Shown: piece after piece, positions 124 through 52,936 of the stretch | Layout: each line of letters begins with the position of its first letter | Numbering within the stretch: the stretch's first letter is position 1 | Assembly: GCA_013298955.1 (NCBI GenBank) | Contig: JAAFJT010000001.1 | Location: 1 to 64,000, forward strand | DNA from: Chitinophagales bacterium | GTDB lineage: Bacteria; Bacteroidota; Bacteroidia; Chitinophagales; Saprospiraceae | Direction: 5' to 3' | Length of the DNA stretch: 64,000 bases | Made by a program: the position numbers and the translations under genes | Notes under the pieces: model-generated | Told to the model about the DNA's origin: nothing | The model's input: only the letters and a program-made list of their open reading frames with translations | Database searches by the model: none

Positions 124-216
124 ACTTCGGCGCGAGGTATCTCAAAATTCCTTCAACCGATTATTGATGCTGAAAAAAAACTCCTTTGAATGGTTCCATT
201 AAAAGGACCTATCCCA

Positions 217-503
217 AAGGTCGGCGAGGTTGAAACCCTATCCAGTACCCACAGAATCAAAAAGGTGCGTCGCACCACAACATTTGTAGAAAAACGATGA
301 ACCAATTTGATTGAAAGGTGCGTAGCACCGTAACATTCGCATCGTTTCACCAATGTTACGGTGCTACGCACCTCCGAAACGGCTTGATTCATCGTTTTGC
401 TACAAATGTTGTGGTGCTACGCACCTTTTTTATTTTGTAGAATCCTTTGAATACCAACAATCATTTTGTGGGTAGTGGATAGGGTTGAAACCTCGCCGAC
501 CTT
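217..503. repeat. Element A, copy 1: nested long inverted repeat
   Basis: The ends form an imperfect inverted repeat of about 40 bases (left 217-256, right 462-503), each carrying TCGGCGAGGTTGAAACC and then a CCCTATCC..ACCCAC segment. Nested inside are inverted copies of a unit made of the small palindrome GGTGC-GTA-GCACC followed by GTAACATTTGTAGAAAAACG. The whole would fold into one long cruciform. A second, array-expanded copy lies at 52388-52771. It fills most of the gap between the partial gene and the racemase gene; open frames across it are accidental. Confidence 0.85.
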
Positions 504-580
504 GATTCTATACAAATGCGTTGATTATCTATGAGTTACATTTTTTTAAAATTAGCGGCATTCAAAAAATTACTTCATTC

Positions 581-2490: not shown

Positions 2491-3210
2491 TTAAAGTTTT
2501 GTTAAAAGATGCGTTATATCGGTCACACATCGGTTATATTCATGCTCATCCATTCCATTGTACATTCCTCTAATACGTTTCTCATTGTCAATCAATATCA
2601 ACGCGCCTGTATGAGCAATATCTTTTTTGCCGACTCCTTTAAAAGTAGTGGTATTATAATGCTCATTTGCCAATTGGTAAATGGTGTCTTTATTGCCTGT
2701 TAGGAAAACATGATTTGGGTTATCAAACCCGTTTTTAGTTGCAAATAATTTTAATCGTTCAGGTGTATCATATTGAGGGTCAATGGAATACGCTATTATT
2801 TTAAAATTCGGAGTTGCTTGAAAATGCGTTGCTATTTTTTGTAACAAGGGTTGCGTTTTCGGGCAGACCGATGGACAAGTGGTGAAAAAAAAATGAGCCA
2901 TATAAACCTGCCCATCTAAAATATTGGAGCGAAAGATTTGCCCATTTTGGTCTGTCAGCGTATGGAATGGAATTTTTTGATGCAATGTATCCATTTTTGT
3001 TTCTTTTTTGGATACACTATAAACCGTTTTGCCCAAAAAGGGCAAAGCCACATCACCGTTGGAGACCAGACTGGTAGGGTCATTGCAAGAAAAAAAGCAA
3101 ATCATGCCCGCTAAAAGCCAACTTATAAAAGGCGGTTCTTGGCGAATTTCTTTTTTTGCCCAAAAAGGGCAAAGCCACATCACCGTTGGAGACCAGACTG
3201 GTAGGGTCAT
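2491..3210 (-). CDS. SCO1/SenC-type copper chaperone, start uncertain
   Basis: The thioredoxin-fold SCO domain covers about residues 75-239. It has the copper-binding CPSVCP motif (CxxxC) after a strand ending AHFFFTT, and the third ligand His in AHTGALI. SCO proteins deliver copper to, or keep reduced, the CuA site of cytochrome oxidase. Before the domain comes a hydrophobic stretch ending in a lipobox-like FFSC, so the protein is probably anchored outside the cytoplasmic membrane. The N-terminus is unclear because the 5' part lies in an exact 127-bp tandem duplication (3027-3280). With one copy removed, this frame runs without a stop into the gene upstream (to 3925), giving one reading frame of 435 residues. 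No plausible ATG/GTG/TTG start precedes the lipobox in the single-copy version. Confidence 0.85.
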   Translation of the reverse strand: MTLPVWSPTVMWLCPFWAKKEIRQEPPFISWLLAGMICFFSCNDPTSLVSNGDVALPFLGKTVYSVSKKETKMDTLHQKIPFHTLTDQNGQIFRSNILDGQVYMAHFFFTTCPSVCPKTQPLLQKIATHFQATPNFKIIAYSIDPQYDTPERLKLFATKNGFDNPNHVFLTGNKDTIYQLANEHYNTTTFKGVGKKDIAHTGALILIDNEKRIRGMYNGMDEHEYNRCVTDITHLLTKL

Positions 3211-3280
3211 TGCAAGAAAAAAAGCAAATCATGCCCGCTAAAAGCCAACTTATAAAAGGCGGTTCTTGGCGAATTTCTTT
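3027..3280. repeat. Perfect 127-bp tandem duplication
   Basis: Bases 3027-3153 and 3154-3280 are identical over all 127 positions, and the match stops sharply on both sides. 127 is not a multiple of three, so the duplication shifts the reading frame between the SCO1 gene and the gene upstream. A second perfect tandem duplication with the same period is at 49321-49575. This length is a common maximum k-mer in short-read assembly, which suggests an unmerged overlap. Confidence 0.95.
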
Positions 3281-3925
3281 GAGTGCCTGTTTTTCTTGGA
3301 GTTGATGGCGCGTTTGGAGTCTATGCTCCCGATTATTGATTTTGGTATGAAAAAACATTTTCTGCATTTTTGCCCGCAATTGGTGCGCTTCAATGTAATT
3401 GCTAAGTCGGTCACTTTCGCTCATTTTATCAGGATTCGGAACCCGAATCTGTGTAATAAACTTTTTGCGGACTTTGGAAACCAACATCCATGGATAACTC
3501 CATTCATACATCATGTGTACGAAACCACTTTTTTCCCGAACTTCAATCGGTGTGAAATAGGCTTGCTCTAAAACAGACAGTTTTGACCAATAATATTCAT
3601 ATAATCGTTGGGTTTTATGCTCAATAGGTATTGTTTTAGCCCCTTTTTCTGCATGAGCGCGTTTGCTTTTGCGACGAACACGTTTGTTAAAATGCTTACG
3701 CTTGCTAAAAAGGATCGTATTGATGAGTGCCAATAGTTTTTCACGCATGGGCGTTTGGCAATCTTCGCGCAAGACGAAATATTTTTCATAACCTACAAAT
3801 TGAGGTTTTTCTAATTCGACATAGAGATACTCCTCTTTCCGCAATTTCATATCTCGGTCGTGTAAAGCTCGAAGCTGGGAAGCGAATGCTTTGTATTGAG
3901 CGCGTTTGGCGCGTCTATCAATCAT
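3080..3925 (-). CDS. Basic protein of unknown function; 3' end altered by duplication
   Basis: As read, 281 residues, but only about the first 215 look genuine. The rest is the duplicated SCO1 leader and then an out-of-frame run ending LLFFLQ. The body is strongly basic (clusters such as KRVRRKSKRAH near residue 80), has many aromatic residues and no signal peptide, and looks like a cytoplasmic, possibly nucleic-acid-binding protein. I do not recognise the family. A good promoter (TAAATTTG at 3941-3948 with TTG 20 bases further upstream) supports the start at 3925. If the 127-bp repeat is an artefact, the gene reads in frame into SCO1. Confidence 0.6.
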   Translation of the reverse strand: MIDRRAKRAQYKAFASQLRALHDRDMKLRKEEYLYVELEKPQFVGYEKYFVLREDCQTPMREKLLALINTILFSKRKHFNKRVRRKSKRAHAEKGAKTIPIEHKTQRLYEYYWSKLSVLEQAYFTPIEVREKSGFVHMMYEWSYPWMLVSKVRKKFITQIRVPNPDKMSESDRLSNYIEAHQLRAKMQKMFFHTKINNREHRLQTRHQLQEKQALKEIRQEPPFISWLLAGMICFFSCNDPTSLVSNGDVALPFLGKKRNSPRTAFYKLAFSGHDLLFFLQ

Positions 3926-6353: not shown

Positions 6354-6435
6354 GATTCAAAATAGTTCCTTTTTTTCCAAAAAAGCGAACCTTTTTAAAA
6401 TAAGTAGTCGCGCCGTAATAAACTATCAAAAAACC

Positions 6436-6617
6436 GCGTCAACATCGGCGAGGTTGCAACCGCGTCAACGTCGGCGAGGTTGCAACCGCGTCAACGTCGG
6501 CGAGGTTGCAACTGCGTCAACGTCGGCGAGGTTGCAACTGCGTCAACGTCGGCGAGGTTGCAACCGCGTCAACGTCGGCGACGTTGCAACTGCGTCAACG
6601 TCGGCGAGGTTGCAACC
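6436..6617. repeat. 26-bp tandem array, seven copies
   Basis: Seven head-to-tail copies of a 26-bp unit of the form GCGTCAACGTCGGCGAGGTT+GCAACC, starting at 6436, 6462, 6488, 6514, 6540, 6566 and 6592, with one or two substitutions each. The last unit runs into its own reverse complement (to about 6626), forming a perfect hairpin around GAGGTTGCAACCTC. There are no unique spacers. The core CGGCGAGGTTG is shared with element A and resembles the 16610-16653 palindrome. Confidence 0.95.
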
Positions 6618-6698
6618 TCGCCGACGTTAATATGTCGACGTTAATATGTTGATTATCAATTATTTACATTGTGATAGCTTATTTCGTTATGACTACTT

Positions 6699-10487: not shown

Positions 10488-10803
10488 GAGTCCGAAAATT
10501 TTAAAGTTGAGTTTCTAAAAAAAATTTGCGCCAATCTATCCTACATTAAAAAATAGATTGGTTTTAGATTAATAAAATTTCGGTGTAATATTACGCATTA
10601 ATTTGGATACTCCAACTATTTATCTTTTTTTTAAAAGATTTTTTTGATTTTAATAATCATAAATTTTTAACAAATATATTTTTAACAAATAATATTTTGT
10701 GTGTGAATATTTTTTTTGAAAAATAATAATCGCGGTAAGGTCTGAATTAGGATTTTTAGGATGACCGAAGCGGACAAACAAGGGAGATAAAATAATCAAC
10801 AAC

Positions 10804-10837
10804 AACGTTTGGAGGGTTTTAAAACCCTCCAAACGTT
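10804..10837. repeat. Element C core, copy 1
   Basis: Perfect palindrome with arms AACGTTTGGAGGGTTTT and AAAACCCTCCAAACGTT. The same core appears at 14161-14193, 21621-21651 and 26113-26143; in two of those it is enclosed by a larger inverted repeat. Confidence 0.9.
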
Positions 10838-14100: not shown

Positions 14101-14222
14101 AGAAGGAAAGAATCGACAAAAAGTTATATCAACTAAAATGTTGATTTTCAAGGTAGTATAACGTTTGGAGGGTTTCAAACCCTCCAAACGTTGTTATCGG
14201 TTCTTTAAATTTAACTACTTAA
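14095..14222. repeat. Element C, full composite copy
   Basis: The core palindrome (14161-14193, AACGTTTGGAGGGTTT) is enclosed by an outer inverted repeat: AGTAGTTA..GAAAGAATCGACAA on the left and GTTATCGGTTCTTTAAATTT..AACTACTTAA on the right. The copy at 26040-26177 has the same order of parts, including a TTGATTTTCAA segment before the core. This shows that the larger unit, not only the core, has been copied. Confidence 0.85.
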
Positions 14223-14869: not shown

Positions 14870-14949
14870 TTTATCTATATTTTATCCATATCGTATCGAT
14901 AGGAATGATTTTAATGGCTTTAAAACGCCTACAAAGGTAACAAAATTGA

Positions 14950-15002
14950 GTAGTCGGGAAATTTATTTCCCGCGAATCGCGGGAAATAAATTTCCCGACT
15001 AC
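14950..15002. repeat. Element B, copy 1
   Basis: Nearly perfect 53-bp palindrome with arms GTAGTCGGGAAATTTATTTC and GAAATAAATTTCCCGACTAC around CCGCGAATCGCGG. The same element is found at 52874-52936. It lies just upstream of the alkyltransferase-like gene. Confidence 0.92.
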
Positions 15003-15061
15003 TGTTATACCTCAACAAAATTGCGCTATTTGAGTTCATTATAAAAACAAAGTTGCTGTTT

Positions 15062-21596: not shown

Positions 21597-21620
21597 TTAT
21601 AATTATAATTACAAACAACA

Positions 21621-21651
21621 CCGTTTGGAGGGTTTGAAACCCTCCAAACGG
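21621..21651. repeat. Element C core, copy 3
   Basis: Palindrome CCGTTTGGAGGGTTT-G-AAACCCTCCAAACGG, the same core as at 10804, 14161 and 26113. Its right end runs directly into the AAACGGTTTGAT tandem array, so the array may have grown from the element's edge. Confidence 0.9.
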
Positions 21652-21770
21652 TTGATAAACGGTTGATAAACGGTTTGATAAACGGTTTGATAAACGGTTT
21701 GATAAACGGTTTGATAAACGGTTTGATAAACGATTTGATAAACGGTTCGATAAACGGTTCGATACACCAT
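21648..21770. repeat. 12-bp tandem array before histidine kinase gene
   Basis: About ten copies of GATAAACGGTTT, the first ones one base shorter and the last ones with CGGTTCGAT. The 12-bp period keeps one frame open, which would add a repeated LING peptide to the kinase if an ATG at 21663 were used. The real start is more likely ATG 21777, just beyond the array. Confidence 0.95.
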
Positions 21771-26039: not shown

Positions 26040-26177
26040 TAAGTAAGTCGTTAAAATTAAAAAAATCGACAAAGAAGCATCCCTACTAAAAGGTTGATTT
26101 TCAATATAATATAACGTTTGGAGGGTTTGAAACCCTCCAAACGTTGTTGTCGATTCTTTCAATTTAACTACTTAGGA
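26040..26177. repeat. Element C, second full composite copy
   Basis: Outer arms AGTAAGTCGTTAAAATT..AAATCGACAA and TTGTCGATTCTTTCAATTTA..ACTACTTAGG enclose the core palindrome at 26113-26143 (ACGTTTGGAGGGTTTG). Order and sequence match the copy at 14095-14222 over most of the length. It lies just upstream of the DUF5723-like gene and beyond the 3' end of dgkA. Confidence 0.88.
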
Positions 26178-49257: not shown

Positions 49258-49258
49258 T

Positions 49259-49363
49259 TCAACACATAGTTCACATAGGAAGACATAGTTCACATAGATG
49301 CATTTCTAAAAAAGAATGCATCTATGTGAACTATGTCTTCCTATGTGAACTATGTGTTAAAAA
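49259..49363. repeat. Element D, copy 3
   Basis: Inverted repeat with arms AACACATAGTTCACATAGGA and TCCTATGTGAACTATGTGTT plus an inner GATGCATTTCT/AGAATGCATC pair, starting at the adhesin stop codon. Half of it is included in the 127-bp duplication that follows. Confidence 0.92.
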
Positions 49364-49575
49364 AATAAAAAAAAAATGAATCGTTATCTATACCTTTTAA
49401 TTTTCAGCTGCATAGCAGCCCCTGCGATACAAGCTCAAGACCCCATTTCTATGTGAACTATGTCTTCCTATGTGAACTATGTGTTAAAAAAATAAAAAAA
49501 AAATGAATCGTTATCTATACCTTTTAATTTTCAGCTGCATAGCAGCCCCTGCGATACAAGCTCAAGACCCCATTT
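49321..49575. repeat. Second perfect 127-bp tandem duplication
   Basis: Bases 49321-49448 match 49448-49575 with a period of exactly 127. The duplicated unit contains the right half of element D and the first codons of the PorP/SprF-like gene. As with the copy at 3027-3280, the sharp edges and the period point to an unmerged assembly overlap. Confidence 0.95.
49376..49456 (+). pseudogene. Duplicated 5' end of the PorP/SprF-like gene
   Basis: Because of the 127-bp duplication, the first 24 codons of the following gene (MNRYLYLLIFSCIAAPAIQA) appear once more here and then run out of frame to an early stop. It has no independent function; with the duplication removed only one start remains, about 120 bases after the adhesin stop. 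Confidence 0.85.
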
Positions 49576-52358: not shown

Positions 52359-52387
52359 TTGATAATCAATTTATTAATGCTATATTA

Positions 52388-52771
52388 AAGTCGTCGAGGT
52401 TGTAACCCTATCCATTACCCACAGAATGATTATTGGCATCCAAAAGATTCTACAAAATAAAAAGGTGCGTAGCACCGTAACATTTGTAGAAAAACGATAG
52501 ACAAACCCTATTGAAAGGCGCGTAGCACCGTAACATTTGTAGAAAAACGATAGACAAACCCTATTGAAAGGTGCGTAGCACCGTAACATTTGTAGAAAAA
52601 CGATAGACAAACCCTATTGAAAGGTGCGTAGCACCGTAACATTTGTAGAAAAACGATAGACAAACCCTATTGAAAGGTGCGTAGCACCGTAACATTTGTA
52701 GAAAAGATGCGAATGTTACGGTGCTACGCACCTTTCAATAGGGTTTCTCGAGCGTTTTTCTAGACGACTTT
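52388..52771. repeat. Element A, copy 2, expanded to a 53-bp tandem array
   Basis: Outer arms AAGTCGTCGAGGTTGTAACC..CTATCC (from 52388) and CTAGACGACTT (to 52771) correspond to the ends of copy 1 at 217-503. Inside, a 53-bp unit starting AAAGGTGCGTAGCACCGTAA occurs five times in tandem (starts 52461, 52514, 52567, 52620, 52673), the last followed by one inverted copy. Each unit contains the small palindrome GGTGC-GTA-GCACC. No unique spacers, so not CRISPR. Confidence 0.93.
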
Positions 52772-52791: not shown

Positions 52792-52872
52792 ATGAAAAAT
52801 ATGAACCAATTAATCCAACAATTAGTAAAACGTTCTGTTGCGCAACGAATGGCAGAATCTTTAAATAACTAA
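52792..52872 (+). CDS. Possible 26-residue peptide
   Basis: ATG 52792 opens a frame of 26 residues (MKNMNQLIQQLVKRSVAQRM...SLNN) ending just inside element B. It has an amphipathic helical look and a basic centre. It may be a small gene or only the remains of one; nothing else supports expression. Confidence 0.25.
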   Translation: MKNMNQLIQQLVKRSVAQRMAESLNN

Positions 52873-52873
52873 T

Positions 52874-52936
52874 ACTTAGTAGTCGGGAAATTTATTTCCC
52901 GCATATCGCGGGAAATAAATTTCCCGACTACTAAGT
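52874..52936. repeat. Element B, copy 2
   Basis: Perfect palindrome with arms ACTTAGTAGTCGGGAAATTT and AAATTTCCCGACTACTAAGT around CCCGCATATCGCGGG. It matches the copy at 14950-15002. It lies 18 bases upstream of the ferredoxin reductase-like gene. Confidence 0.92.

Follow-up and report, generated by a model that had tools for sequence, protein, structure and literature searches.

The window analysed here, by which we mean the whole stretch of 64,000 nucleotides at the start of contig JAAFJT010000001.1 (Chitinophagales bacterium, assembly GCA_013298955.1), has at 217-503 a near-complete nested palindrome, Element A, with a predicted single-stranded DNA fold of -112.9 kcal/mol (z = -22 against 200 shuffles). 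This locus raises the question of what kind of element is built in this way, and how its layers came to lie one inside the other. An initial annotation of the sequence proposed a non-autonomous mobile unit with shared ends and a variable interior. We consider it very probable that Element A belongs to an IS50-like branch of the IS4 family, as a non-autonomous, MITE-like transposable element inserted at the dyads of palindromes. The nested palindrome annotated at 217-503 was confirmed, but the mobile unit proper extends only from 238 to 482, its flanks being the arms of a target hairpin and the second copy of a target duplication. The parts of the two copies in the window are as follows.

190-216, plus strand: degraded left end of MITE1, the outer repeat whose hairpin was hit (similarity judged by eye)
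217-237, plus strand: left arm of the target hairpin, AAGGTCGGCGAGGTTGAAACC, which includes 228-237
228-237, plus strand: left copy of the 10-bp target duplication, GGTTGAAACC
238-482, no strand assigned: mobile core of Element A, 245 bp, MITE-like, with no long ORF
238-257 and 463-482: terminal inverted repeats of the core, with 1 and 2 differences from the consensus end, respectively
264-276, plus strand: unit hairpin 1, GGTGC-GTC-GCACC, followed by TTTGTAG at 283-289
317-329, plus strand: unit hairpin 2, GGTGC-GTA-GCACC
360-372, minus strand: unit hairpin 3, mirrored
413-425, minus strand: unit hairpin 4, mirrored, with CTACAAA at 400-406, which is TTTGTAG on the minus strand
483-492, plus strand: right copy of the target duplication GGTTGAAACC, in direct orientation
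493-503, plus strand: right arm of the target hairpin
504-546, plus strand: degraded right part of MITE1 (similarity judged by eye)
52387-52771, plus strand: second window copy, with five forward units and one mirrored unit
52387-52407: left hairpin arm of the second copy
52408-52427: left terminal repeat of the second copy
52763-52771: hairpin-arm remnant of the second copy, GACGACTTT, the last 9 nt of the outer arm

No mechanically called ORF of at least 120 aa lies inside the 245-bp core. The likeness annotated between 217-503 and 52388-52771 extends to the ~53-nt units and the left end, but not to the right end, which differs in the second copy, its right terminal repeat having been lost. 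Nearly every unit contains GGTGC-GTA-GCACC, as had been noted, the exceptions being GGTGCGTCGCACC in the first copy (unit 1) and GGCGCGTAGCACC in the second (unit 2).

Element A is far more widespread than the two copies 52 kb apart that were initially described. A BLAST search of the host draft assembly (4,684,908 bases in 204 contigs, 97.95% complete) with the 287-bp element returned 201 matches, which collate into 39 places across the 4.68-Mb draft, part of them fragments; the confinement to two loci that the initial annotation had named as telling against a mobile unit was therefore not found. There are 76 exact occurrences of the 16-mer AAAGGTGCGTAGCACC in the host genome and, at up to three mismatches, 63 matches to the 20-bp end, whose consensus is CTATCCATTACCCACAGAAT; the reversed controls gave none in either case. 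With 98% and 97% identity to the window copy and with different flanks, the copies on contigs C101 and C20 suggest that the spread was fairly recent and that the element was active in the not too distant past. Among 39 relatives searched with the same 287-bp query, only G001 matched besides the host, at 70% identity. For counts of units and ends we kept 31 elements, dropping eight fragments that were at contig ends or consisted of a solo end. Both ends are present in 18 of the 31 (up to four mismatches), and neither lies inside the coordinates used in four, two of which (L071 and L086) retain a degraded or partial left end.

The flanks were compared for every pair of ends found at up to six mismatches, 36 pairs from nine genomes. 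Direct target duplications, defined as 7-14 bp with at most one mismatch, flank 24 of these pairs (13 of 22 in the host and 11 of 14 in eight other genomes). Of the 12 pairs without a duplication by this definition, one (L065) begins at a contig end. Where the duplicated sequence is asymmetric it is direct and not inverted, as with GGTTGAAACC in the window, AGTTTTAAACT at L090, GGTTTTGAACC at L154 and GGTTTAAAACC at L165. In 21 of the 24 duplicated insertions the duplication is centred on a dyad, that is, the rebuilt empty site is palindromic with at least 13 of 16 positions paired; random centres reach this score at a rate of 2.1e-4, an upper bound given that the background contains the elements themselves. 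The three exceptions, L237, L241 and L248, are not in good dyads. Duplication length follows the palindrome, being 10 bp in the 12 even palindromes and 11 bp in the nine odd ones. These 21 cases are not independent, as the 12 even ones represent a single hairpin family and the nine odd ones six families, one of which (in G243) resembles the even family. The only complete odd case in the host genome, L090, has the same core in a different hairpin with an 11-bp duplication, and in four one-sided odd cases from the host (L064, L073, L085 and L097) the whole central 11-mer lies beside the end, as expected. In all, similar ends are placed at the dyad, with a duplication length that follows palindrome parity, in seven hairpin families (two of them alike) and seven genomes, including an insertion sequence in genome G344 that is described below.

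Uninterrupted hairpins of the target type are found at 92 places in the host genome (up to three mismatches) and, as far as sequence can tell, represent related empty sites, paralogous ones within a single genome. Many, though not all, of the 35 distinct uninterrupted hairpins viewed in context lie within a second repeat, MITE1, which has the hairpin AAGGTCGGCGAGGTTGCAACCTCGCCGACCTT at its centre. The ends of MITE1, AGTAGTTSAATYGAAAKAACCTATC, have 100 matches in the host genome; in 12 of the 20 copies for which both ends were found the length is 126 bp, and in 12 of 20 TA is present at both sides. The layering in the window is thus MITE1 outermost, followed by its central hairpin, the Element A core at 238-482 and finally the mirrored ~53-nt units. 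The window has a further MITE1 copy at 6403-6697, with TA at both sides and the central hairpin expanded to a 26-bp tandem array. A hairpin family of the form AACGTTTGGAGGGTTTGAAACCCTCCAAACGTT, found at 10788-10837, 14107-14221, 21604-21653 and 26060-26174, resembles an unoccupied target of the Element A type.

We placed 29 elements relative to mechanical ORFs: eight are between convergent genes, 15 between tandem genes, one between divergent genes and five were unclassed. A gene 3' end faces the element in 23 of the 24 classed cases, a setting expected for terminator-type hairpins, and the target palindromes are probably of that type. In the window, 77 bp separate the first copy from the 3' end of an Asp/Glu racemase-type gene, and a WG-repeat gene ends 28 bp before the second. 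Several other repeats occur in the window. A separate nested hairpin family (AGTAGTCGGGAAATTTATTTCCCGCG...) is present at 14942-15003 and 52871-52932, the two being 92% alike and the latter following closely on the second Element A copy. At 3027-3280 a perfect tandem duplication of 127 bp overlaps the ORFs at 2491-3210 and 3080-3925 (minus strand); another perfect one of 127 bp, together with inverted CCTATGTG-type repeats, adjoins the end of a gene for a 2090-aa SprB-repeat protein at 49258-49574.

A scan for the inner end motif in 398 genomes of the same family matched 33, host included, among which single matches may be due to chance. In one of the genomes, G344, two inverted ends (CTTTTGATTACCCACAGAAT) lie 1.48 kb apart on contig 61 around a gene for a 470-aa protein with the Pfam domains PF14706 and PF01609 (Tn5-type DNA-binding and DDE domains). 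This protein scores 310 bits against the IS4_3 model NF033590 (cut-off 160), matches the Tn5 transposase in the PDB (E 1.8e-27) and contains the Y(2)R(3)E(6)K motif. The inner 14 bp of the Element A consensus end are identical to those of the G344 insertion sequence; the outermost six bases differ (CTATCC in Element A versus CTTTTG). The G344 element is itself inserted in a palindrome, ACGTTTACTAAACTTTGAAAGTTTAGTAAACGT, whose central 11 bp are duplicated; the duplicated sequence, ACTTTGAAAGT, is centred in ACGTTTACTAA...TTAGTAAACGT. Similar ends are also present on two other IS4_3 elements, L262 (G474), which is truncated on one side by the end of its contig, and L265 (G203), the flanks of which do not form a good dyad. 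Searching with the IS4_3 model gave 30 loci, 28 of which were examined for ends and duplications. Both were present at 11 loci, where the duplications measured 8-12 bp and the centres scored 6-16 out of 16. Dyad targeting may be confined to part of this lineage, because only two of the 11 loci (L261, which is the G344 element, and L267) are in dyads of at least 13/16; L265 and L276 score 6. Short elements with the same inner ends and very different interiors were seen at L247 (G303) and at L237, L239, L241 and L243 (G572), and also in G625; the named loci in G303 and G572 represent further MITE families of the same lineage.

Seven of seven defined positions of the IS50 consensus CW------Y---CA-A--W- are matched, by eye, by the Element A consensus end. 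Duplications of 8-9 bp are tabulated for the IS50 subgroup and of 7-13 bp for the IS4 subgroups taken together, in the part of that survey available to us (PMC2266710). The 10 or 11 bp of Element A are outside the former range and inside the latter, and we therefore file the element as IS4-family and IS50-like, not as a strict IS50 member. Like other MITEs it is short and has terminal inverted repeats and no transposase gene, and an insertion sequence with the same inner ends exists in a relative, G344, not in the host. A transposase in the same genome was sought with the G344 protein and with NF033590, both of which gave 0 matches in the host assembly (97.95% complete, 204 contigs). None was found in the window either, in keeping with the initial annotation, among the 45 ORFs scanned with Pfam, the full mechanical set of 120 aa or more numbering 60; no Rfam family reached its gathering score in the window. 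A search of 13 genomes with the G344 protein matched only G344 itself, and therefore the other genomes with related MITEs also lack that protein. The mover of Element A may be an enzyme encoded in the unassembled part of the genome or a family member missed by these searches, or the element may be a relic.

In the scheme we propose, a Tn5-type DDE transposase acting in trans would recognize the 20-bp ends and cut the element out. Reinsertion would be symmetric about the dyad of intergenic, probably terminator-type palindromes, with duplication of the central 10 bp of an even palindrome or 11 bp of an odd one. The commonest landing site in the host is the hairpin also carried by MITE1 (~126 bp), so that one mobile element is often nested in another. 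The interior is a mirrored set of ~53-nt units, usually four, the number of which would then drift by tandem duplication or loss. The initial idea of a mobile unit that lacks autonomy, shares its ends and varies in its interior finds support in the terminal repeats, the target duplications and their position at dyads, the related (paralogous) empty sites, the many copies spread through the genome and the autonomous relative with the same inner ends. As to the movement itself, we infer cut-and-paste by the Tn5-type class of transposase and its action in trans.

The interior consists of mirrored ~53-nt units, each with a 5-bp hairpin that in many cases is followed by TTTGTAG. Four units are present in 15 of the 31 kept elements and the remainder range from 1-2 up to 16; these counts are totals only, as orientation counts are unusable for a unit that is itself palindromic. 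When contexts were anchored on TTTGTAG-like tags with no pairing required, a perfect 5-bp hairpin with a 3-nt loop was found 6-7 nt upstream of the tag in 19 of 24 contexts from nine other genomes. In the host, where many tags belong to the spacer, a perfect 5-bp hairpin was found at this distance in 16 of 52 contexts. Hairpins at other gaps from the tag were seen in 2 of 24 and 4 of 52 contexts, respectively. An alignment of 24 units from ten genomes (A2) was then evaluated, leaving out the tag-anchored rows L186:1752 and L178:1471, which have no hairpin at a gap of 6-7, and all but two of the 52 host tag contexts. In this alignment 99.2% of cells pair, and both partners differ in 17 cells where shuffles lead one to expect 3.2 (none of 500 attains 17), a figure that overstates independence since some rows were found with a pattern fixing part of the stem; further pair types are not above shuffles (225 of 500). 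Pairing is also present in units found through the ends (G305, G615 and G622) or as the neighbour of another unit (the second unit in G371). From the aligned sequences, the double changes read as compensatory changes between species in the unit hairpin.

Units occur both with and without terminal repeats. Two loci in the host, L068 and L070, are arrays of up to 16 Element A units without terminal repeats, and because of these the units may spread or persist independently of the Element A ends. The hairpin-TTTGTAG unit was also observed without visible CTATCCATTACCC ends at L098 in G001, another species of the host genus, and in other genera at L186, L194 and L197 (G245), L185 (G371) and L178 (G343), the last being a single unit and weak evidence. 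The wide pattern scans matched 12 of 396, 14 of 396 and 33 of 398 genomes, host included, and reversed controls matched in several; single matches may thus be chance, and we relied on paired ends and repeated units. Phage carriage was considered, and no exact match to the unit (one pattern) was found in viral contigs. An assignment of the units to the GTAG-REPs was rejected, with the tag 6-7 nt from the stem and Bacteroidetes absent from the phyla list in the available part of the GTAG survey (PMC3733652). The hairpin-TTTGTAG unit, with its covariation and its occurrences inside and outside these MITEs, may represent a structured repeat of the Saprospiraceae, for which we found no name and which deserves one.

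Other origins for Element A were weighed against this reading. The initial annotation compared it to REP/BIME elements, which as REPs or REPINs would be moved as single-stranded hairpins by a RAYT (Y1 HUH) transposase, and proposed a search for a RAYT or for an insertion sequence with the same ends. The second proposal was rewarded by the G344 insertion sequence with its shared inner 14 bp, but the first was not: a Y1_Tnp search gave no match in the host genome and was positive in 5 of 14 control genomes, and the relative identified encodes an IS4/Tn5-type DDE transposase. The intergenic position, strong folding, inverted sets of hairpins and GTAG near a stem are all REP-like. Direct duplications of 10-11 bp and 20-bp terminal repeats are not, and 6-7 nt separate the stem from the tag that follows it, whereas published GTAG repeats end in the tag and are placed by the survey, in its available part, in other phyla (PMC3733652), making a RAYT-moved element exceedingly improbable.

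A single larger transposon, the terminal repeat of which includes the hairpin arm and ends at AAGGTCGG, would account for the many host copies with the same arms and for their ~37-41 bp of inverted end similarity. We consider it highly improbable: L090 has the same core in an unrelated hairpin of the host genome, other genomes have it in hairpins of other kinds, target-type hairpins are uninterrupted at 92 places, and where the central 10-11-mer is asymmetric its two copies run in the same direction. It is likewise very unlikely that the elements are immobile structural repeats (terminators or attenuators) that arose on the spot through slippage and template switching at palindromes. In favour of such repeats are the variable unit number, the gene 3' ends facing 23 of 24 classed elements (mechanical ORFs) and the lack of a transposase match in the host. 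Against them are nearly identical copies at separate loci, target duplications in direct orientation, the related empty sites and, in a relative, an insertion sequence that has an open transposase gene and shares the inner ends.

Returning to the MITE-like element inserted at dyads, the points of insertion lie symmetrically around the dyad, each separated from the loop by four stem pairs, and the duplication fits the palindrome over several target sequences, 10 bp for a 2-nt centre and 11 bp for a 3-nt centre. That the length of the duplication follows the palindrome at several target sequences suggests that the shape of an extruded or bent hairpin is read rather than a sequence motif. A joint reading, in which hairpin geometry chooses the target of this transposase lineage and the interior hairpin-TTTGTAG unit may be a signal at the protein or RNA level, is offered tentatively, the balance as we see it tilting somewhat against it. 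If hairpin geometry is read, insertion at hairpin tips near gene ends would be a safe-site strategy, and a testable structural question would be posed for a well-understood class of transposase. At these loci nature has in effect repeated an experiment on how a Tn5-type transposase chooses its targets, and the layered palindrome in the window is explained as one mobile repeat nested in another.

In the open-licence literature we found no description of Element A or its lineage, of duplications whose length matches the parity of the palindrome, of its nesting inside a second mobile repeat or of the covarying hairpin unit. Insertion of IS4 elements at palindrome axes, modular repeats with variable interiors and a Bacteroidota MITE with tandem repeats are already known. 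BOX elements of Streptococcus pneumoniae have conserved end modules and variable internal tandem modules, and mobilization by an insertion sequence with similar ends has been proposed for them in the accessible text (PMC3049150); the likeness to Element A is one of plan, judged here from descriptions, and the BOX modules differ in forming one tandem array while the units of Element A are mirrored. BrickBuilt of Porphyromonas gingivalis, as far as the available text describes it, is a Bacteroidota MITE with IS5-family-like ends and a tandem repeat of 23 nt (PMC4596501), in contrast to the mirrored ~53-nt hairpin units of Element A. In ends and enzyme there is a likeness to the IS50 (Tn5-like) subgroup of the IS4 family and its MITEs, with which Element A shares the end consensus, a duplication of about one helix turn and, through its autonomous relative in G344, a Tn5-type two-domain transposase with the YREK motif. 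It differs from that subgroup in its 10-11 bp duplications against the 8-9 bp tabulated, in its position at the dyad of long intergenic palindromes and in having no transposase found in the host. A precedent for IS4-family insertion at a palindrome axis is ISRm22 of Sinorhizobium meliloti, which inserts at the axis of palindromy of repeated intergenic palindromes (REPs) (PMC1525189) and belongs to subgroup IS4Sa (PMC2266710), in the parts of these reports available to us. ISRm22 is autonomous, has 6-bp direct repeats and targets one REP family according to the same partial source (PMC1525189), whereas Element A has hit several hairpin families with a duplication whose length follows the parity of the palindrome.
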